Assembly: GCA_951812995.1 (NCBI GenBank)
Contig: CATOTD010000006.1
Location: 124,001 to 188,000, forward strand
Source: an uncultured Gammaproteobacteria bacterium
Lineage (GTDB): Bacteria > Pseudomonadota > Gammaproteobacteria > Eutrophobiales > Eutrophobiaceae
Direction: 5' to 3'
DNA: 64,000 nucleotides
Shown in pieces: positions 9,253-28,800 of this stretch. The notes beneath the pieces were generated by a model. The model made no database searches. It saw only the letters and a list, made by a program, of their open reading frames with translations, and had not been told where the DNA came from. Made by a program: the position numbers and the translations under genes. Within the stretch, counting starts at the first letter, position 1; every line of letters starts with the position of its first letter.

Positions 9253-9633
9253 CTAATACGAATTAGGGGGTTCTGGATAGAAAAGAATGACGGCAATAAT
9301 CAGCGATACAACAAAAATAATACTAGCTATCGTGAATACTAAAGTTGGTTTTTTAATAAGTAGCGATTTTATCAGGTTAGTCGTATTTCTGCTTTCAGAA
9401 GCGTGTTTCTTATCGCTTACATTCAATCCTGCTCTGTCTTTTTTGACATTCTCAGTAGTTTCATCTTCATCAGAGGGTGCTACTAGCGGTGGCGGGTAAT
9501 CAGCATCGACAGTAACAATTTCGCCCGCTATTATTGCGTTTATAAGTTCGGCACGTAATCTGCGATAATTGTCTTTATCGATAATACCTTTAGCATATTC
9601 CCTTGCCAGCTCACGCAATGTTTGATGACTCAT
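9253..9633 (-). CDS. Small tail-anchored-type membrane protein, last gene of the signalling operon
   Basis: 126 residues. The N-terminal ~35 residues (LRELAREYAKGIIDKDNYRR LRAELI) form a short helical, SHOCT-like motif (G-I-I-D-K-x-x-Y-x-x-L). A charged, Pro/Asp-rich linker follows, then one C-terminal transmembrane helix (about residues 98-118, TLVFTIASIIFVVSLIIAVI) and a short tail, PEPPNSY. No signal peptide is seen, so the N-terminal domain should face the cytoplasm. The N-terminus of the large kinase just upstream has a similar motif (QKNLGDKQYAQLKRQI), hinting that the two proteins use the same interaction module. The gap to the kinase stop is only 26 nt. Function is unknown; a partner or adaptor of the kinase is an inference. 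Confidence 0.75.
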   Translation of the reverse strand: MSHQTLRELAREYAKGIIDKDNYRRLRAELINAIIAGEIVTVDADYPPPLVAPSDEDETTENVKKDRAGLNVSDKKHASESRNTTNLIKSLLIKKPTLVFTIASIIFVVSLIIAVILFYPEPPNSY

Positions 9634-9659
9634 ATCATATTAGCCGCTTATTTTAATCA

Positions 9660-12600
9660 TCAACCAACATCATCCCGGATCAGGCGAAACCCGGTCGTGT
9701 CATCAGCATTACCATCATGAGTGCGTTCGAGTGTGATTTCACATTTAGCATGTGCATCGGTATATGCGCCACCGCGCACGATTGTGGCGTTTCCATCAAT
9801 CACCCATTCCTGCACGTTACCAACATAGTTTTTTAAGCCCCAGCCATTAGAGTTACCCGATTTAACGCTGACGGTTCCCGTGCCCTTAATCAGTTTTCCA
9901 CTCACTGATACACGGCAGTTAAAATCTTTTTTAGGTTGCTGTCCATTTGCGCTGGCGGCATATTCCCATTCATTCTTGGTTGGGATTCGATATGTTTTTC
10001 CTGTTCGTTCAGATAACCACGCTGCGTAATCTTGTGCTTGCTGCAAGGTAATGCCTGTCATGGGTTCATTCCTTCTTGCCTTATCCGTAATCGGTTTACA
10101 TGTGCGGCTGATGATGCAGTACTTACTCCAGTCGCTAACTGAAATTTCATATTTGGCAATCGCAAAAGGTTTTTCAATACCTTCACCATTGGGCACAACG
10201 ACCATTAACGGACCGCGTGTAGATGGATGGATCATATCAAAACAAATCGCCTTTGAGCGCCTACCATAGCTGGCAAGACGACGAGTGCATTCAGATTCAC
10301 TTGCAATCGGTTTCCATGGCGCAACTTCAGCGACTGTACCCCCCCCCGTATTTGTTCTGGCAAAGCTTTCTGCGGTCAGCTCTTTTTCAGCACGCCTGAT
10401 TCTTGGTTTAGTAACCGGTTTGTATTTTGCTATTAATTGATCCAACTCGGTTTCTGCCGCACTGTAATCAGGGTTATCTGTCCAGAGGCTTTGTGCGCGT
10501 GCCAAGAGATTTTTTGTCGATCTTAATTTTTGATAATCCTCGCCCGCTGCTGTTTTGTCAGAAAGATAAAGTTCATAAACACTATTGGCTTCTTTGATTT
10601 TTTCTTCAAGTGTTTTTGAGAAAGCGATGAAATCAGGATGGACTTTAAATTGATTCGAGGCCGCCTGCTGTAATTGTTGTGCCTGCGTGAGCCTGCCCGC
10701 CAGGATAGATGCATTGGCCGCAGCCACGCCATCCCATGGTTTTAGTTGTAACTGATTCTTCAAATTGGCTAACACGGCATTGGCAGGGAACAATCCGGCG
10801 GCACTTTGCGCAAGTGCGGCCGCGGCATCTTCATTGGATGTGCGTAACGCTTCAATGCGTTTAGCTAATATGTCCGCTGATGCTTTGCTAAACTCGGCAT
10901 AACGAGTCGAATCTGCGTTTTCAATCTGGCTTACCTTCAACCGGACATCAATCGGGAAGGAGCTTGCCGTTTTAAATAATGCCATCAGTTCTATAATATT
11001 TGCTTCAGATTGGTATTCAGTTTTTAATTTTTCCAATAAATCATCATTCCTTTTAACTTCGAGTCCTTTTGTTACAAGTGCATAAGCGGCAGCATAGTCT
11101 TTGGTGTCAGCAGTTTTTTGTGCAAGTCTGGCATAGCTGTTTGCTAGCATCTGTGTTGCTTCAAACATAATATAGTTGTCAGTTTCAGGTATATCAGCCT
11201 GTAACTGCTCAAACAGTTTTTCTGCTTCAGTAATATTGTTTGCATCGGTAAATGTTTTGAAGTCACTCTTGTTAGCAGCAACGCGTGCCTTACGATCAGA
11301 TTCTTTGCGGGCATTGATGACTGTGTTTCGTGCCTCGATCAATGCTTGTAAGCCAGGTGCAAATTGATCAGCAGTATCGATATAAGCATCAGCAGCATCA
11401 AAACGTTCGGCCTGTAAGGTTTCATTAACCTTTGTGATATAAAGTTCAGCGAGCTGATTTCGAAATTGCTGTAGATTGTTGCTAATACTAGTATCTTCTT
11501 TTACTAAACTCGCTAATTCCTGAGTAGCTCTTAACACATTTTTTTCCCACTGCGGGTCACCCACTTGTGCATCGGCCAATTCAGTTTTAATCGTATTGGT
11601 ATCGGTGTTTGCCAGATTGGTAATCGCTTGTTGCCTCGCATCACCCTGAAGGTGCGCGAGCTTAACTTGAGTTAACTGCTGGTTTAGTTGTAGTCCATTC
11701 ATCAGATCGCTAAAGTCAGCGGCAAGTTTCTCTGCATCTGCACGGGTGCCACTTTTTAAGATGGCCTCCAATTCAGTTTGAATAATAGGCTTAAATGCTT
11801 CTGCCAAAGTAGCAATGATAGTACTGTTAGGTTTCAAATTCGCCAGTTCAACAATCGTAGTTTGTTGCTGTTCAAAACGGGTGAGCGACGTTAATTGTTC
11901 TTGTACAGTGCTTAATTCAGATTCTAATTGAGCCACTTTCTGTGCCCGCTCAATTCTGGTTTTCAAATCCACTAATCTAGGATCATCCTTTGCGATTGCC
12001 AAACCTGATGTGATCAGTGATAAGGCCGTTTCAAACTCTTTTGCTTCAAACTTGCTGAGGGCAAGTAAGCGATAAGCGTTACTTGGTCTTGGGTCTGCAA
12101 GCAAGGAATGTTTAGGGTCAATTCTTCTAATGGTGTCCAGAATATTTTTGGTGTTATCAATCAATTCAGGTTCTTTTAACGCGGCAATGTATTGCGTATT
12201 TAGATCGCTGATAATTTGCTTTTTGTTATCCGAGAACAGTGTGGTTTGTTTCTGTAAATAGATTGAGCCAGGATAAAAGCGGCTAATTTCTTTTAATGTT
12301 GCTTCGGCGGCAGGGAAGTCATACATGTTTCCACTGATGTCAGTTAAGTGCGCGACTTGGGCACTAAAATAATTTTGAATAGCGTCTTTTGCTCTTTTAT
12401 CGCCAGTCACAATTGCTTGGTCTGCTTTCTCCAGCAGTAAAACCTCATCAAGACTGGTCACGATATCTTGCGTACTGATATTCTCTGTCGATATTTCAAC
12501 AATCATACCTTCGAGTTTTTTCTGGTGCAGATAATCGCGCGCCGGGACAATAAGCATCATACCAATCACAAGCAAGATGCCAGCTGCAATAACAAATGGG

Positions 12601-14177
12601 TTCTTATGCCAGGTGGCCTTGCCTTCTAGCTCATCGAGAAAATGCGCAACAGTTGGACTACGATCCTCACGCCTAAAGGCCACCGCACGCCTTAAGGCAC
12701 GGTTTTGTTTCTTGTTTAGCTTCTTTATATAGGGCGGCACAAGATTGTTTTCTTTGGCCTTGTTAGCAGGTAGTTTATTGAATGGGTGTTTTGTAGTTAA
12801 TAATTCATAGCACGTACAACCCAATGCGTAGGTGTCGTCGCGTGTATCGGGTTCTTCGCCTTCTAACATTTCAAGGCTGGCATAGGCTGGTGTTAAAGCA
12901 CCTAGTTTGCCTGGATCAAAGAGTGTTTTCTCTGCTTCACCTGTAACTGGATTTTTAACGGCCCGCGCGATACCAAAATCCAGTGTTTTAACAATGCCAT
13001 CATTACATACGAAAGCATTGCCTGGCTTAAAATCAGAATGCACCAATCGACGTTCATGGGCATAAATTAAACCCGCACCAAGCTGCTTTATGATGGCATA
13101 GGCATCATTAAATTCCAGCCCGCCCAAGGGACGCACTTTCTTTTTTAGATAGTCCTTTAACTCCATGCCTTCCATCAATTCCATCGTGATGTAGACGGGT
13201 GTGTTAGAGCCGCCAACACGATCAAAATCGTAAATAGTTGCGATATTCGGATGGGCTAGTTTTTGTTGCCGACTGGACTCTCGTTGCAGTGAAATGAATG
13301 CCTCTGGATGATCCTTAAAGTCATCATTTAACAGCTTGATAGCGACATAAGGTTTTTTGTCTTTTGCTTCAAATTTAAGCAGATCAAGTGCCTTGTAGAC
13401 TTTACCCATGCCACCGATGCCCAGTACTTTTTCAAGCTTAAAGCGTTGTTTAATGATAGAGCCTTCACCATAGCCACCTGATAAATCGCCAACTGGGATA
13501 GACGGATCATTCCATTCTGTGCCAGTCGGACCGGTAGCAGCAGTGATTGATGGTGTTGCTGTATCGGTATTGGTTATCGGCGCACTGATATCAATGAAAT
13601 CGGAGCTATCACTTGTCTTATCTGCTGGTTTTTCACCTTCACGCATGACGATGGTTGAGTCTGATGAAGTCGGATCCGATGGAGCGGGTCCAGCTACGTT
13701 GCTTACAATAGTTGAATCGTTTGCCTCATCTGCTGGTTTTTCACCTTCACGCATGACGATGGTTGAGTCTGATGAAGTCGGATCCGATGAGGCGGGTCCA
13801 GCTACGTTGCTTACAATAGTTGAATCGGAGGCAAGGACGGTAGCGTCGTCAGGCTTAGTTGAATCGGAGGCAAGGACGGTAGCGTCGTCAGGCTTAGTTG
13901 AATCGGAGGCAAAGACGGTAGCGTCAGGTTTATCAGGGTCGGTAACATCTTCAGTTGCAGATGCGTGGCTACGTCTGAATTCATTAATTTGACGTTTTAA
14001 TTGTGCGTATTGTTTATCGCCGAGATTTTTCTGATCATACATCTCATCAAGCTGAGTGAGCATCCTAGTGGCTAACTTGGGCGACTTCTCAAGCAATGCC
14101 GTCAATTGACTAGATAGCACTTCAATTTCCAATTCGCCTTTAGCCAGTGCTCCAAGCGCGGTTTTAAAATTGGCCAA
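9660..14177 (-). CDS. Giant transmembrane Ser/Thr protein kinase with C-terminal FGE/sulfatase-modifying-like domain
   Basis: About 1,505 residues. In order: a helical N-terminus; tandem repeats at about 82-185; a Hanks-type kinase at about 240-500 with glycine loop GIGGMGKVY, VAIKLL lysine, catalytic loop VHSDFKPGN, DFGIA and the D-D-x-Y-A-L-G-C region; one transmembrane helix (about 522-545, NPFVIAAGILLVIGMMLIV); a long helical, TPR/coiled-coil-like region to about 1320; and an FGE-sulfatase domain (about 1321-1505: IAKYEISVSDW, YRIPTKNEWEYAASA, NVQEWV, VRGGAY, GFRLIRD). The kinase should be cytoplasmic and the helical and FGE parts periplasmic. I prefer TTG 14177 because GAGGGG lies 7 nt upstream; TTG 14192 is the longer alternative. 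The catalytic loop reads HSD rather than HRD, so activation-loop control may differ. The FGE fold in kinases is usually a binding module, not a proven sulfatase activator. Confidence 0.93.
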   Translation of the reverse strand: MANFKTALGALAKGELEIEVLSSQLTALLEKSPKLATRMLTQLDEMYDQKNLGDKQYAQLKRQINEFRRSHASATEDVTDPDKPDATVFASDSTKPDDATVLASDSTKPDDATVLASDSTIVSNVAGPASSDPTSSDSTIVMREGEKPADEANDSTIVSNVAGPAPSDPTSSDSTIVMREGEKPADKTSDSSDFIDISAPITNTDTATPSITAATGPTGTEWNDPSIPVGDLSGGYGEGSIIKQRFKLEKVLGIGGMGKVYKALDLLKFEAKDKKPYVAIKLLNDDFKDHPEAFISLQRESSRQQKLAHPNIATIYDFDRVGGSNTPVYITMELMEGMELKDYLKKKVRPLGGLEFNDAYAIIKQLGAGLIYAHERRLVHSDFKPGNAFVCNDGIVKTLDFGIARAVKNPVTGEAEKTLFDPGKLGALTPAYASLEMLEGEEPDTRDDTYALGCTCYELLTTKHPFNKLPANKAKENNLVPPYIKKLNKKQNRALRRAVAFRREDRSPTVAHFLDELEGKATWHKNPFVIAAGILLVIGMMLIVPARDYLHQKKLEGMIVEISTENISTQDIVTSLDEVLLLEKADQAIVTGDKRAKDAIQNYFSAQVAHLTDISGNMYDFPAAEATLKEISRFYPGSIYLQKQTTLFSDNKKQIISDLNTQYIAALKEPELIDNTKNILDTIRRIDPKHSLLADPRPSNAYRLLALSKFEAKEFETALSLITSGLAIAKDDPRLVDLKTRIERAQKVAQLESELSTVQEQLTSLTRFEQQQTTIVELANLKPNSTIIATLAEAFKPIIQTELEAILKSGTRADAEKLAADFSDLMNGLQLNQQLTQVKLAHLQGDARQQAITNLANTDTNTIKTELADAQVGDPQWEKNVLRATQELASLVKEDTSISNNLQQFRNQLAELYITKVNETLQAERFDAADAYIDTADQFAPGLQALIEARNTVINARKESDRKARVAANKSDFKTFTDANNITEAEKLFEQLQADIPETDNYIMFEATQMLANSYARLAQKTADTKDYAAAYALVTKGLEVKRNDDLLEKLKTEYQSEANIIELMALFKTASSFPIDVRLKVSQIENADSTRYAEFSKASADILAKRIEALRTSNEDAAAALAQSAAGLFPANAVLANLKNQLQLKPWDGVAAANASILAGRLTQAQQLQQAASNQFKVHPDFIAFSKTLEEKIKEANSVYELYLSDKTAAGEDYQKLRSTKNLLARAQSLWTDNPDYSAAETELDQLIAKYKPVTKPRIRRAEKELTAESFARTNTGGGTVAEVAPWKPIASESECTRRLASYGRRSKAICFDMIHPSTRGPLMVVVPNGEGIEKPFAIAKYEISVSDWSKYCIISRTCKPITDKARRNEPMTGITLQQAQDYAAWLSERTGKTYRIPTKNEWEYAASANGQQPKKDFNCRVSVSGKLIKGTGTVSVKSGNSNGWGLKNYVGNVQEWVIDGNATIVRGGAYTDAHAKCEITLERTHDGNADDTTGFRLIRDDVG
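13621..13935 (-). repeat. Tandem repeats inside the kinase gene (2 x 108 bp and about 3 x 39 bp)
   Basis: Two 108-bp units (13621 and 13729) encode 36-residue repeats containing DSTIVSNVAGPA and SSDSTIVMREGEKPAD. Three 39-bp units (13819, 13858, 13897) encode 13-residue repeats of the type LASDSTKPDDATV. Both periods are multiples of three. They form an acidic, Ser/Thr-rich linker between the helical N-terminus and the kinase domain. T-K-P-D recurs within it. Confidence 0.9.
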
Positions 14178-14213
14178 TCTATTTCCCCTCAAGCATATAC
14201 ACTAATAAAAAAG

Positions 14214-15029
14214 TCAGTCAATATCGATAACGATAGCCGTTACATTATCACCAGCACCGCGCTCCAATGTCAGTGCGATCATCTCTTTACAAACGGTCTC
14301 TGTAGTACCTTTTAGTAACATTTCATGAAATTCAAAATCTTTTATGTGTTTAGTCAGACCATCGCTACAAAGCAGGTAACGATCGCCTTTTTTCATCTCT
14401 TGAATATCCATATCCAGAAAAAAATTCGGGGTAACACCTACCGCACGTGTGATCACATTTCCATGTGGGTGGACGGCCGCTTCTTCTCTGGTCATGAGTC
14501 CCCATGCTACATATTCTTCAACATGTGAATGGTCAGTCGTCATTTGCCGTAATTCATCATCGCGTAAGCGGTATAAGCGACTATCTCCAACCCAAAAATA
14601 GGCACAATATATATCATACGCAAGCATCATGGCAACCGTGCTGCCAATTATTGCGGTACGCTTGGTTTCTCCATTTTCTTTATCTATTAATCTTGCCTTG
14701 TTGATTAATTTATTATTAATGGTGATAAAAATATCTTCTATAGTATCGATATAGTTGCTAAGAGAAAGTCCTGCGCGGATTTTCTTGAAGGTATTCACAA
14801 TCATCTGACTTGCGACATCACCCGCGTCATGACCACCCATACCATCGGCGACTATCCATATTCCAGCTTCAGGCATTTCCAACATGGAGTCTTCATTATA
14901 CTTGCGGGCATTCCCTACGTCGGTAATGCCATAGGAGCTGTATGAAAACGATTTTGTAAGGTTTTTCTCGTCAGGATAGGGCATAACAATACTATTATTC
15001 ACCCCGATTTCAGGCAGGCTCCAATACAA
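14214..15029 (-). CDS. PP2C-family protein serine/threonine phosphatase
   Basis: 271 residues from the longest start. The metal-dependent PP2C fold is marked by the expected acidic motifs: ARKYNEDS, WIVADGMGGHDAGD, FWVGDSRLYRLR, LLCSDGLTKHI and the C-terminal GAGDNVTAIVIDID. This is the bacterial PrpC/Stp type and is soluble. It should dephosphorylate the kinase encoded 36 nt downstream, or that kinase's targets. The longest start is TTG 15029, overlapping the cyclase gene by 20 nt. GTG 15002, just past the upstream stop, and ATG 14984 are alternatives, and the sequence does not decide between them. Overlap or tight spacing with both neighbours supports translational coupling in one operon. 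Confidence 0.93.
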   Translation of the reverse strand: MYWSLPEIGVNNSIVMPYPDEKNLTKSFSYSSYGITDVGNARKYNEDSMLEMPEAGIWIVADGMGGHDAGDVASQMIVNTFKKIRAGLSLSNYIDTIEDIFITINNKLINKARLIDKENGETKRTAIIGSTVAMMLAYDIYCAYFWVGDSRLYRLRDDELRQMTTDHSHVEEYVAWGLMTREEAAVHPHGNVITRAVGVTPNFFLDMDIQEMKKGDRYLLCSDGLTKHIKDFEFHEMLLKGTTETVCKEMIALTLERGAGDNVTAIVIDID

Positions 15030-15918
15030 AAGAAACGATCTCGGTTGGGTTTTCTATAAAAGATCGGCCGAGGCTGAGCGCACCGCTTGCAGAAATATGC
15101 ATTTCTTCACGTCTTAAAAATGCATCTTCAGTATGATCCATTCTAACATGCGTCCCATTCGTACTTTGGTCAATTATGAAAAATTTAGTACGGCGCATTT
15201 CTATCCGCACATGTTGTCTGGAAGCAAGTTTTTCATTAATGGGTAGATCGCAGGCTTGACTGCGACCCATGATCAATCCAGATCGCTTTTGATTGAGCGT
15301 GATGGTCTTGCCGCCGTAACTCACTTGCAGTGAGGTATCTTGTGCTTTAGGCGGATCCTGTATCATGCTAGTCACCATCCGCGTGACATCTTCTGCTTGC
15401 CAGATGATTTCGAATATCTCTATCGCTTTCTCTTTGCCTTTAATAGGTGCACGGTCAACAAACCGAGTACTGGCACGCATAGTTGGTTCCAACAGATCAA
15501 CAGTGGACTTGGTGGTTATGATTTGACCGCCTTTGGCCTGGGCTGCCATTCTGGCGGCAACATTGACGGCATCGCCAAAGACATCACCATCTTCGAGTAA
15601 TGCCGGCCCATAATGCATGCCCACTCTGATCTTGATTTCAGGTGCGTCCGCATCCCTCATTTCATTGGCATCTTCGAGCGTTTCTTGCATTTCAACGGCT
15701 GCATCCGCCGAATCATTTGCGGTGGAGAAAGTACACATTACTTCATCACCAATGGTTTTTATGACGACCCCATTGTAGGCATGGATAACCTTCGTCAATA
15801 AAACCAGCGTTTTGGCAATAGTGATACGGGCCGTAGCATCCCCGAGCACTTCAAATAAACGGGTACTACCACTTATATCAGCAAACATGATAGCAATATT
15901 AGTTTTTTTCGGTGACAT
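15010..15918 (-). CDS. Class III adenylate/guanylate cyclase with C-terminal FHA domain
   Basis: 302 residues, first gene of the minus-strand operon. The N-terminal class III cyclase domain (about 1-170) has the metal-binding Asp motif IMFADISGSTRLFE, the second Asp in VIKTIGDEVMCTF, and VFGDAVNVAARMA near the dimer interface. The C-terminal FHA domain (about 205-300) has the phosphothreonine-binding signature GRSQACDLPI...SRQHVRIE and DQSTNGTHV. No transmembrane helix is present, so it should be a cytoplasmic enzyme making cAMP or cGMP (substrate not decidable by eye), controlled by binding a phosphothreonine protein. The adjacent kinase is the obvious candidate partner. Start ATG 15918 has a purine-rich AAGAAAG just upstream. 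Confidence 0.93.
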   Translation of the reverse strand: MSPKKTNIAIMFADISGSTRLFEVLGDATARITIAKTLVLLTKVIHAYNGVVIKTIGDEVMCTFSTANDSADAAVEMQETLEDANEMRDADAPEIKIRVGMHYGPALLEDGDVFGDAVNVAARMAAQAKGGQIITTKSTVDLLEPTMRASTRFVDRAPIKGKEKAIEIFEIIWQAEDVTRMVTSMIQDPPKAQDTSLQVSYGGKTITLNQKRSGLIMGRSQACDLPINEKLASRQHVRIEMRRTKFFIIDQSTNGTHVRMDHTEDAFLRREEMHISASGALSLGRSFIENPTEIVSFVLEPA

Positions 15919-16289
15919 ATCTTTCTTTAATCGGTTAGCTTAAAACATATTTAAAGAGTAATTAAAGCGTATAAATATAATACAAATTTATATCTATATC
16001 TATGTTATGAACCCCTTGATTTTGCATACCCAACAGCTAAATAGTATTTAACCCATTCAAAATGTAACTTAAAACTTTGCTAGTAAGCCATATTTCATGC
16101 TGATATCAAGATAAAACACTCAAAATAAAATACAGACATCGCATGATAGCTAATAAATAGTTTGAAGTCATTGCGTTATGGAATAAAATTGACAAAGAAA
16201 ATGAAGTATTAGAGCAATTTAAATCAGCATAATTTTAATGATATGATATACAACATTATACATTTCTTAATAGGTTTAAAAATTCAATT
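15919..16289. promoter_or_regulatory. Divergent AT-rich intergenic region between the signalling operon and the secretion locus
   Basis: About 370 bases with no coding potential, very AT-rich. It must carry promoters for both the cyclase operon (leftward) and the isomerase gene (rightward). A TATGAT at 16242-16247 could be a -10 box for the rightward gene and TTGACA occurs at 16189-16194, but the two are too far apart to pair. I cannot define a full promoter or operator. Confidence 0.4.
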
Positions 16290-17321
16290 ATGAAGTTCGT
16301 AAATCTTAAAACATTAATAGTTATTTTGGGTGTGGGTCTGGTTTTTGTAATCGCGCAGACAGATACGGTCTCGGCTATCTCCGTAAAAGAATTATTAGGG
16401 TTGGAAAAACCAGAAGCAGACCAAACAGAAGTCGCCGATGAGTCGTCTGATGCAAGCAATTGGGCTGAAGCGACAGAAAAAAAGGCGGCACTCAATTCTC
16501 AAATAGATCTGGATTATGTCTCGTTATTAATAGACAACATGAATCAGTCAGAGCGAGAGAGGATATTGGCCGATCCAGAACTATTTAAACAAGTTATTGA
16601 AAATGAAGCAAATAGTCTTTCAGCGATAGCGGCCGCGATCGGCAATAACCTGATTGAGGATCGCAACGTTGAATTCTTAATGCGTCGAGGAGCGGAAAGT
16701 ATCTTGCGCGAATCTTATCTTACGCTATTAATCGCGAGTAGATTACCAAAGGATTTTCCGAATGATGAACAGGTCGCTGAATATTATGAATCTAATAAAG
16801 CGCAGTTTATCGTGCCTGAGCGTTTCCATGCCTGGCAAATATTTTTCAATAAAGCAAAAACAAACCAAGAAGATGCCGCCCTAAAGAAAAAAGTTGAAAA
16901 AATTATTGCCGATTTAAAAAGCGGCAAAGAGGAGTTTGCAAATATTGCATTTATTCAGTCTGAACATGAGCAAAGCAGAGCGTTAGGTGGCTATATGGGA
17001 TTATTAAAAACCAACGACCTGATTCCAGAGTTAAAAGATCCCATTTTGAAACTAAAAGCAGGTGCGATTAGTGTAGCTATCGAGTCTCCAGATGGTATAC
17101 ATATCCTGAAAAGAGGAAAAATTCTCGAACCAGAGCCGCTACAATTACCAAAAATTGAGGCGCAAGTACGCCAATTATTGATTAACCAGGCTAATGCGCA
17201 GTTAAGAAATGCCATTTTTACGCAAGCCAGAAAAGAATATCCGCAAGCCATTTCTGAAAACAAACTTGACGAGTGGCGATTGAGATTAAAGACAAAAACA
17301 AATTCAAATCCAAATCCATGA
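16290..17321 (+). CDS. Periplasmic parvulin-type peptidyl-prolyl cis-trans isomerase (SurA/PrsA-like)
   Basis: 343 residues. The hydrophobic N-terminus (TLIVILGVGLVFVIAQT) is a signal peptide or anchor. A helical chaperone region follows, then a rotamase domain at about 180-280: FHAWQIFFNKAK, KSGKEEFANIA, GGYMGLLKTNDLIPELKD and SVAIESPDGIHILKRGK. The C-terminal helices (PKIEAQVRQLLINQ) match the family. It probably folds or holds outer-membrane or secreted proteins in the periplasm. It lies 354 bp upstream of tpsB on the same strand, which suggests a dedicated chaperone for the TPS pair. The gap means co-transcription is not proven. ATG 16290 starts just before the signal; there is no strong ribosome site. 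Confidence 0.87.
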   Translation: MKFVNLKTLIVILGVGLVFVIAQTDTVSAISVKELLGLEKPEADQTEVADESSDASNWAEATEKKAALNSQIDLDYVSLLIDNMNQSERERILADPELFKQVIENEANSLSAIAAAIGNNLIEDRNVEFLMRRGAESILRESYLTLLIASRLPKDFPNDEQVAEYYESNKAQFIVPERFHAWQIFFNKAKTNQEDAALKKKVEKIIADLKSGKEEFANIAFIQSEHEQSRALGGYMGLLKTNDLIPELKDPILKLKAGAISVAIESPDGIHILKRGKILEPEPLQLPKIEAQVRQLLINQANAQLRNAIFTQARKEYPQAISENKLDEWRLRLKTKTNSNPNP

Positions 17322-17675: not shown

Positions 17676-19640
17676 ATGATAATTGTGGAAAATTATATAA
17701 TAAGCCACAGCAGATGTTATGGGTACTTGATTGCATGTTTGTTATTGTTTTTTAGCGATCTGATACTAGCTAACCCACTTGTTTTACCCGATTCAGCACG
17801 ACCAGGGGCTGTACGTCCTGAAATTGAAATTGCTCCTGCACAAATCGCTGTTCCAAATTCAGCACGACCAGGGGCTGTACGTCCTGAAATTGAAATTGCT
17901 CCCGCACAAATCGCTGTTCCAGATGATAGCGTTGTAGTAGCTGAGCCTATCGATATCCCTGCAGTGATTGACCGACCGTTCGATATTGAAGAAGGCCCCT
18001 ATGTTGCTGTCAAGGCATTCAGGTTATTAGATGCTGAGGATCTGCCTAAATACGCTATCAGTACTGATGAAATCAAAACTTCAATTCTTGACAGGATGCA
18101 AAAAGAGCAGCCTGCAAGAGGTTTTAGTATTGGTGAGTTACAAAAGGTCGCAGAAGAGGTAACAAGCTACTATCGCGCCAGGGGTCTTATCCTTTCCACC
18201 GCAATTATTCCAGTACAAACTGTCGAGGATGGGATTGTCGATATTGATATCCGTATTGGGCGGCTAGGGCGTGTCATTGCGGAGAGTAATGAACAGTTTA
18301 GTGAAAAAGTATTAAGTAAACCCTTTTTAGGTCTTGTGGGCGAGCCAATAACACAAGCGGCCATTGAGGCCGCATTGCTCACCTTAACCGATTATCCTGG
18401 TTTGAGTGTGTTTGGCGTATTTCAGCCCGGCTTGCGGGTAGGTGAGGCAGATATTGTCCTCAAAGTACAAGAAGAAAAATGGTACGATGTTGCCTACCGA
18501 GCAGATAATCATGGCCTACAGGAAACAGGTCGCAATCGCTTCAGAACGGTGATCGAGTGGCATAATCCAACTGGTTTTGCAGATAAAATTACGGGGACAA
18601 TCCAACAAACATACAATCCGAAGAATAATAAATTTTGGGCAGTGGACTATGAAGTTTTTCTTGGCCGGGGCTTTACGCTAGGCGGCAGTCTGTTTAAAAA
18701 TAGTTTCAATATAGGGGGCACATTCAAAGCCAGTCAAATATCTGCAGAATCTGAAAATCGTGCTATTTATATCAATAAATCTTTCATCCGTAGCCGCCAA
18801 CAAAACTTGTCTTCAAAATTTTCTTTTACCTCTAAAAAATCCGTAACCAAAAGTGCGGAGCAGCAAAGAAGCAACGAAAGATTGAGTGTGTTTTCATTGG
18901 AAATGAACTTTGATTCGGTAGATACCTTCCATCCTTTCCGGCCATTAATCAATTTAATCAGTAAAACGACCGCTGAAGACTTTGGGGGCGGTTTGAATTT
19001 TGCCAATGTAAAGATTGTTCAAGGGTTTAATAATATTTTTGGCGCGCTCGGCTCTAGTAAGTCTCAATTAGCAGGTCCCTTAGGCAGTCGCTCCAGCCGC
19101 CGCGGCAATCAGTTGACTGAATTGGGAGAGGGTCAATTCACTAAAGTCACAGCCTCCTATCAGCGGTTGCAGTTGATGACTAAAAATCAATCATTCTTAT
19201 TTAGAACTGAATTCCAGTGGAGCAAAGATATCTTGTCGCCGCTGGAGCAATACTCTGTTGGCGGACCTGACAATGTAAGGGGGTTTCCGGATGGAGAAGG
19301 TTTGTTTGATCGGGCTTATTTCTTTACGCTGGAATATATTTTCAATGCACCGTTCATAGAAGATGTGATGGCTTTTGAAAATCGGACTTGGGGTGAATTG
19401 CTTCAATTTTCAGTATTTTATGATTTTGTCACCGCACAACAAAACGACGCGCTTGATACCACTACCGATAGAAATACGTCTGGCAGTTGGGTAACGTTCA
19501 AGAGTGTCGGCATGGGGCTTAGGTTTAATTTACCCGGGTCTATCGACAGCCGGTTAATGTATGCCACTGAATTAGGCGCGGAGATACCCAATGACGGTCG
19601 TTTTGGACATATATGGGGCGATTTTACCTATCATTTTTAA
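17676..19640 (+). CDS. TpsB two-partner secretion outer-membrane transporter (ShlB/FhaC/HecB family)
   Basis: 654 residues. A signal peptide (GYLIACLLLFFSDLILA) is followed by a proline-rich linker with a duplicated 22-residue unit (residues about 39-82). A POTRA region with the family's ShlB-type start follows (FDIEEGPYVAVKAFRLL ... ARGLILSTAIIPVQ ... VDIDIRIGRLGRV), then a 16-strand-type barrel to the end. The conserved loop motif is present as VRGFPDGE (about residue 533), and the protein ends FGHIWGDFTYHF, with the terminal aromatic residue needed by the BAM machinery. It exports a cognate TpsA, which is encoded 230 bp downstream. Start ATG 17676 gives the complete signal; its ribosome site is poor. 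Confidence 0.95.
   Translation: MIIVENYIISHSRCYGYLIACLLLFFSDLILANPLVLPDSARPGAVRPEIEIAPAQIAVPNSARPGAVRPEIEIAPAQIAVPDDSVVVAEPIDIPAVIDRPFDIEEGPYVAVKAFRLLDAEDLPKYAISTDEIKTSILDRMQKEQPARGFSIGELQKVAEEVTSYYRARGLILSTAIIPVQTVEDGIVDIDIRIGRLGRVIAESNEQFSEKVLSKPFLGLVGEPITQAAIEAALLTLTDYPGLSVFGVFQPGLRVGEADIVLKVQEEKWYDVAYRADNHGLQETGRNRFRTVIEWHNPTGFADKITGTIQQTYNPKNNKFWAVDYEVFLGRGFTLGGSLFKNSFNIGGTFKASQISAESENRAIYINKSFIRSRQQNLSSKFSFTSKKSVTKSAEQQRSNERLSVFSLEMNFDSVDTFHPFRPLINLISKTTAEDFGGGLNFANVKIVQGFNNIFGALGSSKSQLAGPLGSRSSRRGNQLTELGEGQFTKVTASYQRLQLMTKNQSFLFRTEFQWSKDILSPLEQYSVGGPDNVRGFPDGEGLFDRAYFFTLEYIFNAPFIEDVMAFENRTWGELLQFSVFYDFVTAQQNDALDTTTDRNTSGSWVTFKSVGMGLRFNLPGSIDSRLMYATELGAEIPNDGRFGHIWGDFTYHF
17791..17922 (+). 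repeat. 66-bp tandem duplication in the tpsB linker
   Basis: Copies at 17791-17856 and 17857-17922 differ by only a base or two. They encode repeated SARPGAVRPEIEIAPAQIAV units in the segment between the signal peptide and the POTRA domain. Confidence 0.95.
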
Positions 19641-19702: not shown

Positions 19703-19870
19703 TATGTTTCATTTGTGACGGAGTTACTTAAAAATGCTGTTATTTATCGGTACTATAGACCAGAAATTCAGCGTATGTTGAATTGGAGCATGTTATCATC
19801 TTGAACGTAAATCTGGTATTGAATGCGATATATTTCGATACTGACAATGTTGGCATAATGTGAAGCAAAC

Positions 19871-22800
19871 GTGAGTAGAAAAAGAAAAATGGGTATGCAG
19901 GCGCAAAGCGTTTATGCACCGTTTAGGTTGAATCCAGTTGCGGCCTTCATACGTACCTCATTGCCTGCGAGTTTATTCTTGAGTTTGTATAGTGCGAATG
20001 TTGTTGCACAGACAACGCCACTACTGCCTAATTTTCAATCTACCAATTCAGTGTTTACGCAAACCGGTGGGCATGGCCTTATCAACTCGCCCACAGTGGC
20101 AGGACATGGCGTAGCGGATTCGATCGCCATTCCTGAACGCCAATCGCTCACAATTAAGCAAGCTACAAATGCACACTATGCCCTAGATAGCAGGAGCAGT
20201 GGTCTCTTGCCAGAGCAGATATTAGGTGATCTTAATTCGCCAGGTAGCGTTACGCTTTTTGCCGCCAATGGCATCCTGATTGGCTCCAAGTCTACCATTA
20301 ACGTTAATTCATTATTGGCCACGAGCCTGCGCTCATCGGATGCTGGCGATTTCCGGCAAGGCAAGCATCTGTATTTCAATCCGGATGGTAGCGAAGGTGC
20401 CCCGGTCGTAAACCAGGGCACCATCAACGCGGCCGCCGGTGGTTCCGTCACCTTGCTCGGTGGTGCTGTCAGCAATGCAGGCACGATTTTGGCGACTGCC
20501 GGCCAGGTCAATCTGGTCGCTGGCAAAAAAATCGCTATGGATTTCGATGGCGATGGCTTGATGCGTTTCACTGTCAATGAAGCCGTATTGAAAAATGCCG
20601 AGGGTCTTGCTGAGGCCGTATCAAACACTGGCACGATACAGAGTAGCAGTGTCTTATTGGAAGGCAAGGTCGCAAAAGATGTTTTCACCCATGTAGTGAA
20701 TAACCAGGGCGTGATAACGGCCGGCCGCATTGACAAACATGGCGGCAGCATACGGTTGGTTGCTGGCGGTGCTGGCAATTCACTGATCAATACTGGCACC
20801 TTAAATGCCGCCGGGGTCGGCGGTGATGGTGGTAGCGTTCATATTTACGCAGACGACACCGCTATTATCAGCGGTGATAGCGTTATCACGGCGGCATCGA
20901 CAACCGCAAAGGGCGGCACGGTGCAGGTGCTAGGCGACAAAGTAGGCCTGTTTGACAACACGTCGATCGATATCTCGGGCAAGATGGGCGGGGGTGTTGT
21001 GTTAGTGGGCGGCGATTATCAGGGGCAGAACGACGACATCAAAAACGCGTCTTATACCGCCGTCGGTCGTGATACGACGATCAACGTCGATGCAACGGCC
21101 AACGGTGATGGCGGCAAGGCCATTATCTGGGCTGATAAAACCACTCGTTTTTATGGCGACATCAGCGCGCAGGGTGGCGTGCAAGGCGGCGATGGCGGGT
21201 TTGTCGAGGTCTCGGGCAAAGAGAGCCTGGTCTTTCGTGGCGCGGTCAATACCCGTGCGACCAAGGGCGACACTGGCCAGTTATTACTGGACCCGACTGA
21301 TATTGTTATTGCTAACGGGACGGCTGCTACAGATGATACCGAAATCAGTGATAGCACGATTGCCTTTGCCGATGCGGGTGCTACCTTTACCATCAGCGAG
21401 GACGCACTGGAAAAACTTACGACCAATATTACCCTGCAAGCCACCAATTCCATCGCGATGAGTGATCTCACAGATGACGAATTGACTCTCAGTACCAATG
21501 GCGACGTAAGTTTCAGGGCCGGTGCGGGTGGCTTTACGATGGTGGATGCGAACGACACGATTCGTATCACTGGTACCGGTACTTTATCGATTAATACAAT
21601 CAATTCAGCCGATTTTAACACCGGATTACCCCGTGGCGGCGGCACGGGTGATGGCGAGATCACTGTCGGCTCGTTGGTGACGGGCGTGGGTGGAAACATC
21701 ACGCTGACCGGCACTGTCATCACTGTTAATGGCAACATTACTACGGGCGCGGTTGATGCGGTTAATGCCAGTTCGGGCAAGATCACGCTGACGGCCGAAA
21801 CAGGCGCAGTGACGCTGAACGGAAATCTCGCAACGGGCGATGCTAAAAGCAAGGGTAGCGGCGGGGGTAATGATGAGGCCGCCGAGAGTGGTGAAATCAG
21901 CATAAGCGCATTCACAACGCTAACCGGCACCGGCACCATCACCACTGGCGATGCGACCGTTAATGCGGCCGGCGGGGGTAATGATACGGCGACGACCGGC
22001 GACATCGGTATTCAAGTGTACGGCGTGGGTATTGCAGCGGGTGTTAGTGCTATTCAGGTCGGCAAGATGACCATTGGTAATGCGATAGTCGAAAACGCTG
22101 GTGACACGAACGACACGGCAACATCTGGAGATATCGTGTTAGTTGCTGCCTATAACGGCAATATCGGCACCGATGCGGCGATTCGTCAGGCGGTTCATAT
22201 TGGTTCTGCTACCGGCACTGGCACCACAACAAGGGGTGCCGCAGAATTTTACGGACTCAATAATATATACCTGTCAACAGATACCACGCTGACTATCTCT
22301 GGTCTGCAAACGGCGGCGAGTGCCAATACGATCGATATTCTGGCGAATGTCGGTGCCAATGTCATTTTGACCGGCGTGGATGGCTCGCCCACCTTGAATG
22401 GCTATACCAATCTCAACACTGACAACTTTACGGTCAACGGCCCCGGCACAGTCTCTTTCACAAATACGCCGTTTTCCGTTGGCAGTGTCGAGATCTGGGG
22501 CAGTGCCACGCTGGGCGTGGATATCACAACCACGGGCAACCAGATATACAGGGGCGCGGTCACCTTGAGCGGGTCCGACCGCACGCTTATCGCTGGCACC
22601 AACACGGTGACCTTCAGCGGCGGCATCACTGGTGATAGCAAAACCCTGACGATAGGTGAGACTGGTGCCGGGAAAGCCAGCAAGCTGAGGTTGACTACAA
22701 AGGCCGCGACCGGCCTTGCCAGCCTGTTGGTCTATGGCATCAGCACGCTCGGCGCGAATGTCACAACCACGGGTGCACAGGAATATACGGGTGCGGTAAC

Positions 22801-25800
22801 GCTAAGTAGTGGGGTGACCTTAGCGGGTACCAAGGGCACCTTTGCGGCGGCGGGTGTGATTGGTGCTGGCAATGATTTAACCCTGAACTACAGCGGCCCG
22901 ACGATCATCGACAGCAGTTTCTCCGGCATTGGGGCACTGAGCACGGGTGGCGGTGGTACGACGGAGTTGACCGGCATGATTACAACCTCGGGCGCGCAGA
23001 CCTATGGCGATGTGGTGGTGCTGGATGGCGATACCACATTATTGGCTGGCACCAACACGGTGACCTTTAGCGGCGGCATCACGGGCGGTGGCAACGCTCT
23101 GACGGTGGGTGCGGCTGGTACTGGGAATGACAGCAAGCTGATTTTAAAGCAACCGCCATCCGCGAACCCACCTCCCGTGATGCCACCACCACCGGTCACC
23201 GCCACCGGCCTTACCAGCTTGCGTGTCTATGGCACGACCACGCTCGGCGCGGATGTGGAGACCACGGGCAATCAGCTCTATAGGCGCGCGGTGACGTTGA
23301 GTGGTGGCACCCGCACGCTTATCGCTGGCACCAACGCGGTGATCTTCAGAGGCGGCATCACGGGTGGTGGCAACGCCCTGACGATTGGTGCGGCTGGTGT
23401 TGGGGATGAGAGCAAGCTGACGTTGCGTAACACGGCCACCACCGGCCTTGCCAGCTTGCGTGTTCATGGCACCAGCACGCTCGGCGCAAATGTCACGACC
23501 ACGGGCAACCAGACCTACACGGGTGAAGTAACGCTAAGTGGTGATGTCATCTTGACCGGTACCACGGGCACCTTTAGCACTGTGGCTGGCGGCAACAATG
23601 ATTTAACGTTGAACTACAGCGGCACGACCCTCATCAACAGCAATTTCTCCGGCATTGGTAAGCTGGCCACGGGTGGCACTGGCACGACAAGACTGACTGG
23701 CTCGATTACAACCTCGGGTGCGCAGACATACAACGATGCGGTGGAGTTGACGGCTGATACTATCTTATTGGCTGGCAGCAACAAGGTGACCTTTAAAGGC
23801 GGCATCACGGGCGGTAGCAAAACCCTGACGATAGGCGACAATACCACAAACACAAGCAATCTGACGTTGACTACAACGGCCGCGACTGGCCTTACCAGCT
23901 TGCGTGTTCATGGCACCAGCACGCTCGGCGCTAACATCACGACCACGGGCTTGCAGGAGTATAAGGGTGCTGTGACCTTGAGTGCCGATGCAACGCTGAC
24001 GGCAAGGAATGGCGCTACGTTGCAAACGGTGAAGTTTGAGAAGACCGGCAGTGCTGTTGATGGCGCGCAGGCCTTGAAAATTATCGGCAATCTGGACCTG
24101 TACGGCGCAGTCGGTGCGGGCACGCCATTGACCAGCCTTGAGGTAACGGGTATCAGCTACTTGCAGAATGTCACAACCACGACCACGCAGACCTACAAGG
24201 GTAATGTGGAGATGGTGGGTGACGCTACCCTGACCGGCACGACCATACAACTGGCCGCGGTCGATACCTACGGGTTCTTGAACACTCCCCCATCGACCTT
24301 GACCATTAACGGCAATCTGAACTTAGACGGCGCAGTCGGTGCTAACGCGCCAATCAAAATTCTTAAGGTATCGGGCACCAGTGACCTCGGCGCAGATGTG
24401 AAGACCCTAGACGACCAGACCTACGCGGGTGCAGTAACGCTAAGTAGTGACGTGACCTTGACGAGTCGTGATACCACGGGTACCTTTGCGGCGGGTGTGA
24501 TTGGTGCTGGCAATGATTTAACCCTGAACTATAGCGGCACGACCCTCATCGACAGCAATTTCTCCGGCATTGGTAAGCTGACCACAGGTAACCTTGGTAC
24601 AACGCGACTGACGAGCACGATTACGACCTTAGGCGACCAGACTTACCACGATGTGGTGGTGCTGGATAGCAATACCACATTATTGGCTGGCGCCAACACG
24701 GTGACCTTCAACAACACGGTCGATTCCGCGACTGGTAACAACCATGGTTTAACGATAGGCAGTGTTGGGAGTCAAAGCAACCTGGTCGTCAATGCTACCG
24801 CTACCATCGGTGCGACCCAGGCACTCGGCAGTCTTGCGGTATCGGGCACCAGTAACCTGGGTGCGAATGTCACAACCACGGGCAACCAGACCTACGCGGG
24901 TAAAGTGACCTTGAGCAACAGTGCCCGCATACTGACGGCAAGGAATGGTGTGGGTGTGTTGCAAACAGCGCGGTTTGGGACGACGGTTGATGGTGGCACA
25001 CAGGCCTTGACCATTACCGGCAATCTGGACTTAGACGGTGCCGCCACCGACCTTGCCAGCTTGCGTGTTCATGGCACCAGTAATCTCGGCGCAAATGTCA
25101 CGACCACGGGCAACCAGACCTACACGGGTGCGGTAACGCTGAGTGATGATGTCATCTTGACCGGTACCACGGGCACCTTTAGCACTGTGGTTGGCGGCAA
25201 CAATGATTTAACCTTGAACTACAGCGGCACGACCCTCATCAATAGCAATTTCTCCGGCATTGGGGAGCTGACCACGGGTGGCGGTGGCACGACAAGACTG
25301 ACTGGCTCGATTACAACCTCGGGTGCGCAGACCTACAACGATGCGGTGGAGTTGACGGCTGATACTATCTTATTGGCTGGCAGCAACAAGGTGACCTTTA
25401 AAGGCGGCATCACGGGCGGTAGCAAAACCCTGACGATAGGCGACAATAACACAAACACAAGCAATCTGACGTTGACTACAACCGCCGCCACCGGCCTTGC
25501 CAGCTTGCGTGTTCATGGCACCAGTAATCTCGGCGCAAATGTCACGACCTCGGGCGCGCAGACCTATACGGGTGCGGTAACGCTAAGTAGTAACGTGACC
25601 TTAGCGGGTAGCACGGGCACCTTCACGACGGGTGTGATTGGTGCTGGCAAGAATTTAACGTTGAACTACAGCGGCACGACCCTCATTGACAGCAGTTTCT
25701 CCGGCATTGGGGAGCTGGCCACGGGTAATGGTGGCACGACCAACCTGACCGGTTCGATTACAACCTCGGGTACACAGACCTACAACGATGCGGTGGTGTT

Positions 25801-28800
25801 GACGAATGCCACTACCTTATTGGCTGGTGCCAACACGGTGACCTTTAACGGCGGCATCACCGGCAGTAGCAATACCCTGACGATAGGCGACAATACCACA
25901 AACACAAGCAATCTGACGTTGACTACAACGGCCGCCACCGACCTTGCCAGCTTGCGTGTTCATGGCACCAGTAATCTCGGCGCAAATGTCACGACCACGG
26001 GCAACCAGACCTACACGGGTGCGGTAACGCTGAGTGATGATGTCATCTTGACCGGTACCACGGGCACCTTTAGCACTGTGGCTGGCGGCAACAATGATTT
26101 AACGTTGAACTACAGCGGCACGACCCTCATCAACAGCAATTTCTCCGGCATTGGTAAGCTGGCCACGGGTGGCACTGGCACGACAAGACTGACTGGCTCG
26201 ATTACAACCTCGGGTGCGCAGACATACAACGATGCGGTGGAGTTGACGGCTGATACTATCTTATTGGCTGGCAGCAACAAGGTGACCTTTAAAGGCGGCA
26301 TCACGGGCGGTAGCAAAACCCTGACGATAGGCGACAATACCACAAACACAAGCAATCTGACGTTGACTACAACGGCCGCGACTGGCCTTACCAGCTTGCG
26401 TGTTCATGGCACCAGCACGCTCGGCGCAAATGTCACGACCACGGGCAACCAGACCTACACGGGTGAAGTAACGCTGAGTGATGATGTCATCTTGACCGGT
26501 ACCACGGGCACCTTTAGCACTGTGGTTGGCGGCAACAATGATTTAACCTTGAACTACAGCGGCACGACCCTCATCAATAGCAATTTCTCCGGCATTGGGG
26601 AGCTGGTCACGGGTGGCGGTGGCACGACTAACCTGACCGGTTCTATCACAACCTCGGGTGCGCAGACCTACAACGATGCGGTGGAGTTGACGGCTGATAC
26701 TATCTTATTGGCTGGCAGCAACAAGGTGACCTTTAAAGGCGGCATCACGGGCGGTAGCAAAACCCTGACGATAGGCGACAATAACACAAACACAAGCAAT
26801 CTGACGTTGACTACAACGGCCGCCACCGGCCTTACCAGCTTGCGTGTCTATGGCACCAGCACGCTCGGCGCAAATGTCACGACCACGGGCAACCAGACCT
26901 ACACGGGTGAAGTAACGCTGAGTGATGATGTCATCTTGACCGGCACCAAGGGCACCTTTAGCGCGGGTGTGGATGGCACTAACACCAACCCCGGCGGCAC
27001 CAACTATAATTTAACCTTGAACTACAGCGGTCTTACGACGATTAACGGTAACACTGTCTTTGACAACATCAATAACCTGGAAACGGGTGGCGGTGGTACG
27101 ACTAACCTGACCGGCTCGATTACAACCTCGGGCACGCAGACATACAACGATGCGGTGGAGTTGACGGCTGATACTATCTTATTGGCTGGCACCAACACGG
27201 TGACCTTTAGCAATGGCATTACCGGCAACAACAACGCCCTGGTGATTGGTGCGGTGGGTGCTGGGAATGACAGCAAGCTGATTTTGAATCAACCGCCGCC
27301 CGCGAATCCACCGCCCATGAATCCACCTCCACCGGTCACAGCCACCGGCCTTACCAGCTTGCGTGTCTATGGCATCAGCACGCTCGGCGCGAATGTCACC
27401 AGCACGGGTACACAGACCTACACGGGTGCAGTAACGCTAAGTAGTAACGTGACCTTAGCGGGTACCACGGGCACCTTCACGGCGGGGGTGGATGGCACCA
27501 ACGTCGGCGGCACCAACTATAATTTAACCTTGAACTACAGCGGTCTTACGACGATAGACGGTAACACTGTCTTTCAGAACATCAATAACCTGGAAACGGG
27601 TGGCGGTGGTACGACCAACCTGACCGGCTCAATTACAACCACGGGCAACCAGACATACAACGATGCGGTGGTGTTGACGAATGCCACTACCTTATTGGCT
27701 GGTGCCAACACGGTGACCTTTAACGGCGGCATCGCCGGCGGTGGTAATGCCCTGACGATAGGCGACAATAGCACAAACACAAGCAAGCTGACGTTGACTA
27801 CAACGGCCGCCACTGGCCTTGCCAGCTTGCGTGTTCATGGCACGACCACGCTGGGCACTAACATCACAACCACGGGCAACCAGACCTATACGGGTGCGGT
27901 AACGCTAAGTGGTAACGTGACCTTAGCGGGTACCACGGGCACCTTCACGGCGGGGGTGGATGGCACCAACGTCGGCGGCACCAACTATAATTTAACCTTG
28001 AACTACAGCGGTCTTACGACGATAGACGGTAACACTGTCTTTCAGAACATCAATAACCTGGAAACGGGTGGCGGTGGTACGACCAACCTGACCGGCTCAA
28101 TTACAACCACGGGCAACCAGACATACAACGATGCGGTGGTGTTGACGAATGCCACTACCTTATTGGCTGGTGCCAACACGGTGACCTTTAACGGCGGCAT
28201 CGCCGGCGGTGGTAATGCCCTGACGATAGGCGACAATAGCACAAACACAAGCAAGCTGACGTTGACTACAACGGCCGCCACTGGCCTTGCCAGCTTGCGT
28301 GTTCATGGCACGACCACGCTGGGCACTAACATCACAACCACGGGCAACCAGACCTATACGGGTGCGGTAACGCTAAGTGGTAACGTGACCTTAGCGGGTA
28401 CCACGGGCACCTTCACGGCGGGGGTGATTGGTGCTGGCAATGATTTAACCCTGAACTACAGCGGCACGACCCTCATCGACAGCAATTTCTCCGGCATTGG
28501 TAAGCTGGCCACGGGTGGCGGTGGTACGACCAACCTGACCGGCTCGATTACAACCACGGGCAACCAGACATACAACGATGCGGTGGTGTTGACGAATGCC
28601 ACTACCTTATTGGCTGGTGCCAACACGGTGACCTTTAACGGCGGCATCACCGGCGGTGGCAATGCCCTGACGATAGGCGACAATACCACAAACACAAGCA
28701 AGCTGACGTTGACTACAACGGCCGCGACTGGCCTTGCCAGCTTGCGTGTTTATGGCATCAGCACGCTCGGCGCGAATGTCACCAGCACGGGTACACAGAC

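Follow-up and report, generated by a model that had tools for sequence, protein, structure and literature searches.

A Ser/Thr Kinase, PP2C Phosphatase and FHA-Adenylate Cyclase Operon Divergent From a Giant Two-Partner Secretion Locus in an Uncultured Gammaproteobacterium

Why should a threonine-phosphorylation operon that carries its own nucleotide cyclase lie back to back with the genes for a giant secreted protein? The question is raised by a 64,000-nucleotide stretch of an uncultured gammaproteobacterial genome (the window), in which a first-pass annotation had recognized a four-gene minus-strand operon divergent from a giant two-partner secretion (TPS) locus, and had conjectured a pathway from envelope sensing, via cAMP or cGMP, to surface-fiber production. 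Open reading frames and Pfam domains confirm the layout: genes for the FHA-adenylate cyclase, PP2C phosphatase, Ser/Thr kinase (bearing an FGE-like domain) and a small membrane protein occupy the minus strand from 15918 to 9253, and those for a PPIase, for TpsB and for the giant TpsA lie on the plus strand (Table 1). The reading that we develop here, of a phospho-relay which may tie both cAMP and the making of the giant two-partner-secreted adhesin to the envelope, is one on which our own judgment is evenly divided. If true, it would attach a threonine-phosphorylation pathway to a type Vb system and make a second-messenger enzyme the effector of that pathway, bring cAMP under phosphothreonine control, and suggest how uncultured Gammaproteobacteria might time the building of adhesins whose length runs from thousands to tens of thousands of residues.

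Table 1. Features of the operon and the divergent TPS locus (window positions)
Feature	Position	Strand	Basis
FHA-adenylate cyclase (class III cyclase domain and C-terminal FHA)	15010..15918	-	Pfam Guanylate_cyc 1.4e-22, FHA 1.7e-10
PP2C phosphatase	14214..15029	-	Pfam PP2C_2 1.4e-13
Membrane Ser/Thr kinase, 1510 codons	9660..14192	-	Pfam Pkinase 2.2e-34, FGE-sulfatase 1.1e-17
Kinase: N-terminal Thr-motif array, seven D-[AS]-T-[VI]-[VLF] copies	13644..13925	-	Motif count
Kinase: catalytic domain	12717..13439	-	Pfam, residues 252-492
Kinase: single transmembrane segment	12540..12596	-	Hydropathy
Kinase: predicted periplasmic helical solenoid, ~700 aa	10419..12530	-	AlphaFold2 model, pLDDT ~91
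Kinase: FGE-like (C-type-lectin-fold) domain	9675..10172	-	Pfam; fold search
Small SHOCT-like membrane protein, 126 codons, conserved last operon gene	9253..9633	-	No Pfam family
Divergent cyclase/PPIase promoter region, no CRP palindrome	15919..16289	.	Window best 7/10
Periplasmic parvulin-type PPIase	16290..17321	+	Pfam Rotamase 6.3e-14; conserved beside TpsB
TpsB outer-membrane transporter	17676..19640	+	Pfam ShlB 2.9e-21, POTRA_2 1.5e-08
Degenerate half CRP palindrome, full in relatives before tpsA	19714..19729	+	Read by eye; gap best 6/10
Giant TpsA, continuing past the window	19871..64000	+	ORF; one frameshifted repeat unit ~45.7-46.5 kb

Parts of the operon and of the secretion locus

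The cyclase, PP2C, kinase and PPIase genes keep the same order in other species, at 60-84% cyclase identity, which argues that they are real. As the first-pass annotation had claimed, the cyclase is fused to an FHA domain, both being found in a single ORF. Its catalytic residues D14, K54, D58, D112, N119 and R123, together with R219, S233, H236 and N254 of the FHA domain, are all ten present in 35/35 TPS-linked cyclases. With roles that we take to be those of class III enzymes generally, the former comprise two metal Asp, a Lys/Asp substrate pair and an Asn/Arg transition-state pair; the latter are the phosphothreonine-binding R, S, H and N (GR / S..H / NG). On these presumed roles the Lys/Asp pair predicts cAMP as the product, and the cGMP that the earlier annotation had offered alongside it is unlikely. 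A search of the window's genome (99% complete) that covered Guanylate_cyc domains and class I cyclases returned none besides the FHA-cyclase. The same genome encodes a Ser/Thr kinase that ends in a cNMP-binding domain (L221:1399-2694), a possible second cAMP reader.

The phosphatase matches the NCBIfam Stp1 model at 8.2e-61, though under the model's cut-off, and its metal Asp residues are kept in all 56 alignment rows, a few gaps apart. Its translation probably begins inside the listed ORF, near 14981, such that the apparent 20-nt overlap with the cyclase may not be real. The kinase start is probably TTG 14177, as the kinases of relatives begin at this position. Catalytic residues K/D/D are intact in 44/44 aligned kinases, all of which bear HSD[FL]KP in place of HRD. 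In the cytoplasmic linker, D-[AS]-T-[VI] motifs number seven in the window (shuffles: mean 1.18, maximum 5) and 8-12 in loci of the gene order called B below; the array exceeds all 300 shuffles in 12/45 kinases and not in the remainder, for a motif picked after the sequences had been read. We propose these motifs as candidate docking sites for the FHA domain.

The periplasmic FGE-like domain attributed to the kinase is borne out by its Pfam match and by the one transmembrane segment. The AlphaFold2 model of the periplasmic part has a pTM of 0.56 overall, the FGE-type domain being less confident than the solenoid. A structure search with this domain returned PvdO (Z 11.1), PorK (Z 9.9) and FGE (Z 9.4) as best folds, and Foldseek with the whole periplasmic part yielded nothing beyond generic helical repeats (TM-scores near 0.1); Z is uninformative for helical matches in this comparison. 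PvdO, PorK/GldK and ToxD thus share the fold of the C-terminal domain, which here, in contrast, is the terminus of a kinase's predicted ~700-aa periplasmic solenoid. This domain has one invariant Cys and, in the place of the first catalytic Cys under what we take to be the FGE cysteine-pair motif, an invariant Asp; the catalytic pair therefore looks incomplete. The small last gene (9633-9253) encodes a SHOCT-like helix and one membrane segment, SHOCT being recognized by Pfam only in a longer homologue. A second FGE-domain protein lies 3' of this gene in L063 (17226-17894), L117 (17230-17934), L118, L119, L120 and L014, and in the window Mutator-family transposase genes (8317-9006 and 5824-6810) flank the low side of the operon. 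Sigma-70 promoters and terminators near the operon are no more numerous than in shuffles.

Across the divergent promoter, Pfam finds in TpsB both the POTRA domain and the ShlB-type barrel, as for two-partner secretion (type Vb). Directly 3' of TpsB runs a giant repeat ORF with a conserved N-terminus, the first 1500 residues of which match no Pfam family. Its repeats are of 675 bp (window 19871-64000, and L111 and L113). The frame is interrupted at 45739 by one frameshifted repeat unit, and then reopens and continues out of the window as far as roughly C6:211,046 on the contig, giving ~22,390 codons over ~67 kb. The frameshifted unit is identical to other copies at 742/746 bases, a few small indels apart, and an assembly error is therefore likely. 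A separate giant frame, of 24,301 codons around the cyclase in G153, was dropped as masked N.

Linkage to two-partner secretion

Within the family, the order of small gene, kinase/FGE, PP2C, cyclase, divergent PPIase, TpsB and TpsA is kept in L002-L021 and L063, to the contig limits. Of 25 strong TpsB matches among 58 relatives (E <= 1e-100; one of the 25 lies outside the family), 23 are on the contig of the cyclase, and the other two are on contigs of 3.6 and 4.35 kb, too short to tell. In a census of 37 family genomes (cyclase orthologue E <= 1e-80, TpsB E <= 1e-20), 23 had both genes, six neither, six the cyclase only and two TpsB only, the last pair on contigs of 3.6 and 4.35 kb; in all six cyclase-only genomes the cyclase contig ends before TpsB could appear. 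Co-presence is significant with relatedness ignored (Fisher p 0.008). Loci L021, L046 and L058 come from MAG records bearing the title Klebsiella pneumoniae or Bordetella parapertussis; as L021 has the operon and clusters with uncultured members of the family, its title is probably wrong.

Across a class sample of 369 genomes, 87 cyclase matches (E <= 1e-40) fell in 79 genomes, eight of the matches being left outside the locus count. The 78 loci examined are 76 less one N-masked, plus the window, L009 and L063 (the last two being G016 and G028 by coordinates). A kinase (>200 bits) accompanies the cyclase in 21/78, and of these TPS genes are present in 12, 11 in the stretches first taken and one (G274) only after the locus was extended; six lack TPS and three are cut by contig ends, leaving 12/18 testable. 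Beside the 57 kinase-less cyclases TpsB was found in 0/57, with one TpsA-like stretch ~8 kb off, in loci mostly unextended such that the comparison is not fully even; the difference is strong with relatedness ignored (Fisher 7e-10), and any TpsB occurs in 124/369 genomes as background. A TpsA-like stretch near the cyclase of L163 (G172) was not counted; this locus has no kinase, and its TpsB lies ~20 kb off. Marinicella-type genomes (L052, L054, L055, L060, L061) hold a kinase-less FHA-cyclase in a fixed neighborhood of their own, unrelated to TPS.

The link takes five gene orders across the Gammaproteobacteria: A, as in the window; B, with PP2C divergent from cyclase-kinase-TpsB-TpsA (seven loci, Pseudomonadales-type); and C, D and E in G216, G042 and G274, respectively. 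TPS-linked cyclases occupy several separate places on the cyclase tree, where the TPS label changes 12 times, at least five of these being forced by well-supported branches. As the labels miss contig-cut loci, a single origin of the link with later losses may still account for this pattern.

The first-pass annotation had asked whether co-occurrence with TPS loci is conserved or, to the opposite, the operon is widespread without them. Co-occurrence is indeed conserved and survives rearrangement, but it is not universal. Searches that start from the kinase, using an FGE profile (369 genomes; 32 matches >= 149 bits; loci taken earlier plus 16 new ones), show TPS genes adjacent in 14 loci, within ~10 kb in two, absent over that range in nine, and untestable in seven owing to contig ends or a remnant. 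An FGE kinase seemed always to mean TPS when viewed from the cyclase side (11/11 with FGE, 0/6 without), a rule overturned by these 9/25 testable loci. The opposite pattern is thus half borne out: FHA-cyclases are widespread apart from TPS, 57/78 loci lacking the kinase and having no TpsB, and 9/25 testable FGE-kinase loci lack TPS. Six of the nine kinases are short (~840-950 codons where the frame is whole), and those of G218, G078 and G122 are long.

These exceptions lend something to a different account, in which the operon is a general envelope-stress module that neighbors TPS merely by ancestry and has its real targets elsewhere. Beyond the nine loci, modules with the PPIase and without TPS (for example L127-129) are consistent with it, as is similar-type TpsB without the kinase in L197-L199, L201 and L202. 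The recurrence of the linkage in five gene orders and separate lineages argues against ancestry, however, as do the absence of TpsB beside kinase-less FHA-cyclases and the placement of CRP palindromes described below, before tpsA and at none of the other gaps tested; we hold this account to be unlikely.

In G076 the kinase, PP2C, small gene and TPS are present with no close cyclase, and the cyclase is accordingly not indispensable. The module is tied to TPS often, not always, and the cyclase is its commonest, not its sole, partner. This bears on a second alternative, post-translational control in the manner of type VI secretion (T6SS), whereby the kinase would act directly on export (on TpsB, the PPIase or TpsA transit) and cAMP would serve as a side branch or would inform the rest of the cell. 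The kinase-PP2C-SHOCT set beside TPS in G076, and the adjacent kinase, PP2C and TpsB in G200 and G202, where no cyclase is seen in the locus, are consistent with such control; the long solenoid, as modeled, could reach export partners, and Agrobacterium tumefaciens PpkA and Fha act through protein contact (PMC3953482). Against this, the cyclase residues are intact in all 35 TPS-linked cyclase loci, and the kinase domain is cytoplasmic whereas TPS export is periplasmic, such that a direct substrate is not obvious. We rate direct control as a tentative and somewhat improbable option.

A cyclic AMP route to tpsA

For the phospho-relay to reach the adhesin gene through cAMP, a receptor and a site would be needed, and on paper both exist, the site in relatives. 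The window's genome has a CRP orthologue (equivalog 313.9 bits against a cut-off of 266), as do 33/37 family genomes. A perfect TGTGA-N6-TCACA palindrome lies between tpsB and tpsA in 7/27 loci of three families (L002, L003, L005, L008 and L011 in this family; L118 and L120 in two others), and a 9/10 match in L006, L009 and L177. Only 20 perfect palindromes occur in all loci scanned (3.29 Mb); in L002 and L120 the one between tpsB and tpsA is the only one in the locus, where 0.04 and 0.01 are expected. The palindrome centers lie ~50-155 bases 5' of the first possible tpsA start. Several intergenic gaps were tested, and those other than tpsB-tpsA were negative: at the cyclase-PPIase promoter 1/31 loci was notable, the window's best match being equaled in 52/60 shuffles, and between PPIase and tpsB there were 0/25.

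The cyclic-nucleotide route to a surface fiber envisaged by the first-pass annotation therefore has candidate components in relatives, but the window itself has no palindrome between tpsB and tpsA, only a degenerate half-site. The palindrome is likewise absent from gene orders B, C and E and from several family members, and the CRP step is thus not general. CRP/FNR factors share related half-sites, and the palindromes may be unrelated to the FHA-cyclase, being used with another cAMP source or by another factor of this type; further cyclase homologues in the relatives speak for this. That no additional cyclase of class III or class I was found in the window's genome speaks against it, though the palindrome is missing from the window as well, and we find the idea distinctly doubtful.

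The proposed relay, its precedents and a natural deletion

Sequence supplies the parts of the phospho-relay, with intact catalytic and phosphothreonine-binding residues, their linkage, CRP, and palindromes in relatives; from these we infer what signal it reads, where the FHA domain docks, in which direction regulation runs and each of the biochemical steps. The solenoid and FGE-like domain would sense some condition of the envelope, or of the export of TpsA by TpsB, upon which the kinase would autophosphorylate threonines of its own cytoplasmic N-terminal linker. Docking of the FHA domain on these phosphothreonines would set the activity of the cyclase (we assume activation), and the resulting cAMP would load CRP, which in relatives with the site would bind between tpsB and tpsA and turn tpsA on. 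PP2C would reset the relay, and the PPIase may keep TpsA export-competent. The relay might even close on itself as a secretion checkpoint, in which the solenoid reads export of the giant adhesin and gates the main, and here apparently only, adenylate cyclase, cAMP being an export report that feeds back through CRP on tpsA; we consider this speculative and on the improbable side.

The resemblance to the T6SS threonine pathway (PpkA/PppA/Fha1) noted in the first-pass annotation holds for logic and not for kinship. A membrane Ser/Thr kinase of Hanks type with its catalytic residues, a PP2C encoded next to it, and an FHA protein are encoded together beside a secretion system in both; here, by contrast, the FHA domain is fused to a cyclase and the neighbor is type Vb. 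The T6SS sheath gene VipB/TssC (PF05943) is absent from the window's genome, and the TagH/Fha-type FHA model TIGR03354 scores 29.2 bits, under its cut-off of 120.25. Closer in one respect is DgcB (FHA-GGDEF) of Bdellovibrio, in which an FHA domain also controls a nucleotide-messenger cyclase, by way of a Thr tail (PMC6733907); DgcB makes c-di-GMP and its ligand is its own tail, whereas here a class III adenylate cyclase is linked to a kinase. At the output, cAMP-Vfr activates the TPS operon exlBA in Pseudomonas aeruginosa, a CRP-type activation resembling that in the proposed relay, although the relevant parts of PMC9260685 describe neither a kinase/FHA step in this CyaB-cAMP-Vfr pathway nor gene linkage between cyclase and TPS. 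The PPIase role fits the precedent of Par27, a periplasmic parvulin that binds filamentous hemagglutinin, a TpsA, in Bordetella, and whose loss was reported to leave hemagglutinin secretion unchanged (PMC8151025); here the PPIase gene lies inside the TPS locus. In the open-licence PMC literature we found no description of a kinase-PP2C-FHA-cyclase-TPS module; by term search, a TPS review (PMC5422565) lacks 'cyclase' and 'FHA domain', and a Hanks-kinase review (PMC6213207) lacks 'cyclase' and 'two-partner'.

A ready natural comparison is offered by a sister species (G006, rated 100% complete), in which a single deletion of ~74 kb at this locus (L225, G006:C22) runs from inside the kinase (window ~12,680) to within the last 250-270 codons of TpsA. 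It takes with it PP2C, cyclase, PPIase and TpsB, as well as the kinase domain and almost the whole of TpsA. What is left of the kinase contains an in-frame stop, the ends at L225 are decaying, and no TpsB remains in the genome. Loss of the whole unit indicates that it is dispensable as a whole; as one event, it is no proof of joint function. Genes that lie 3' of TpsA encode a small secreted protein with a domain in common with the C-terminus of TpsA (L113:3036-3596; BLAST 1e-09) and then a SapC-family protein (L113:3636-4403; PF07277, 6.6e-68), both of which have counterparts in the sister species.
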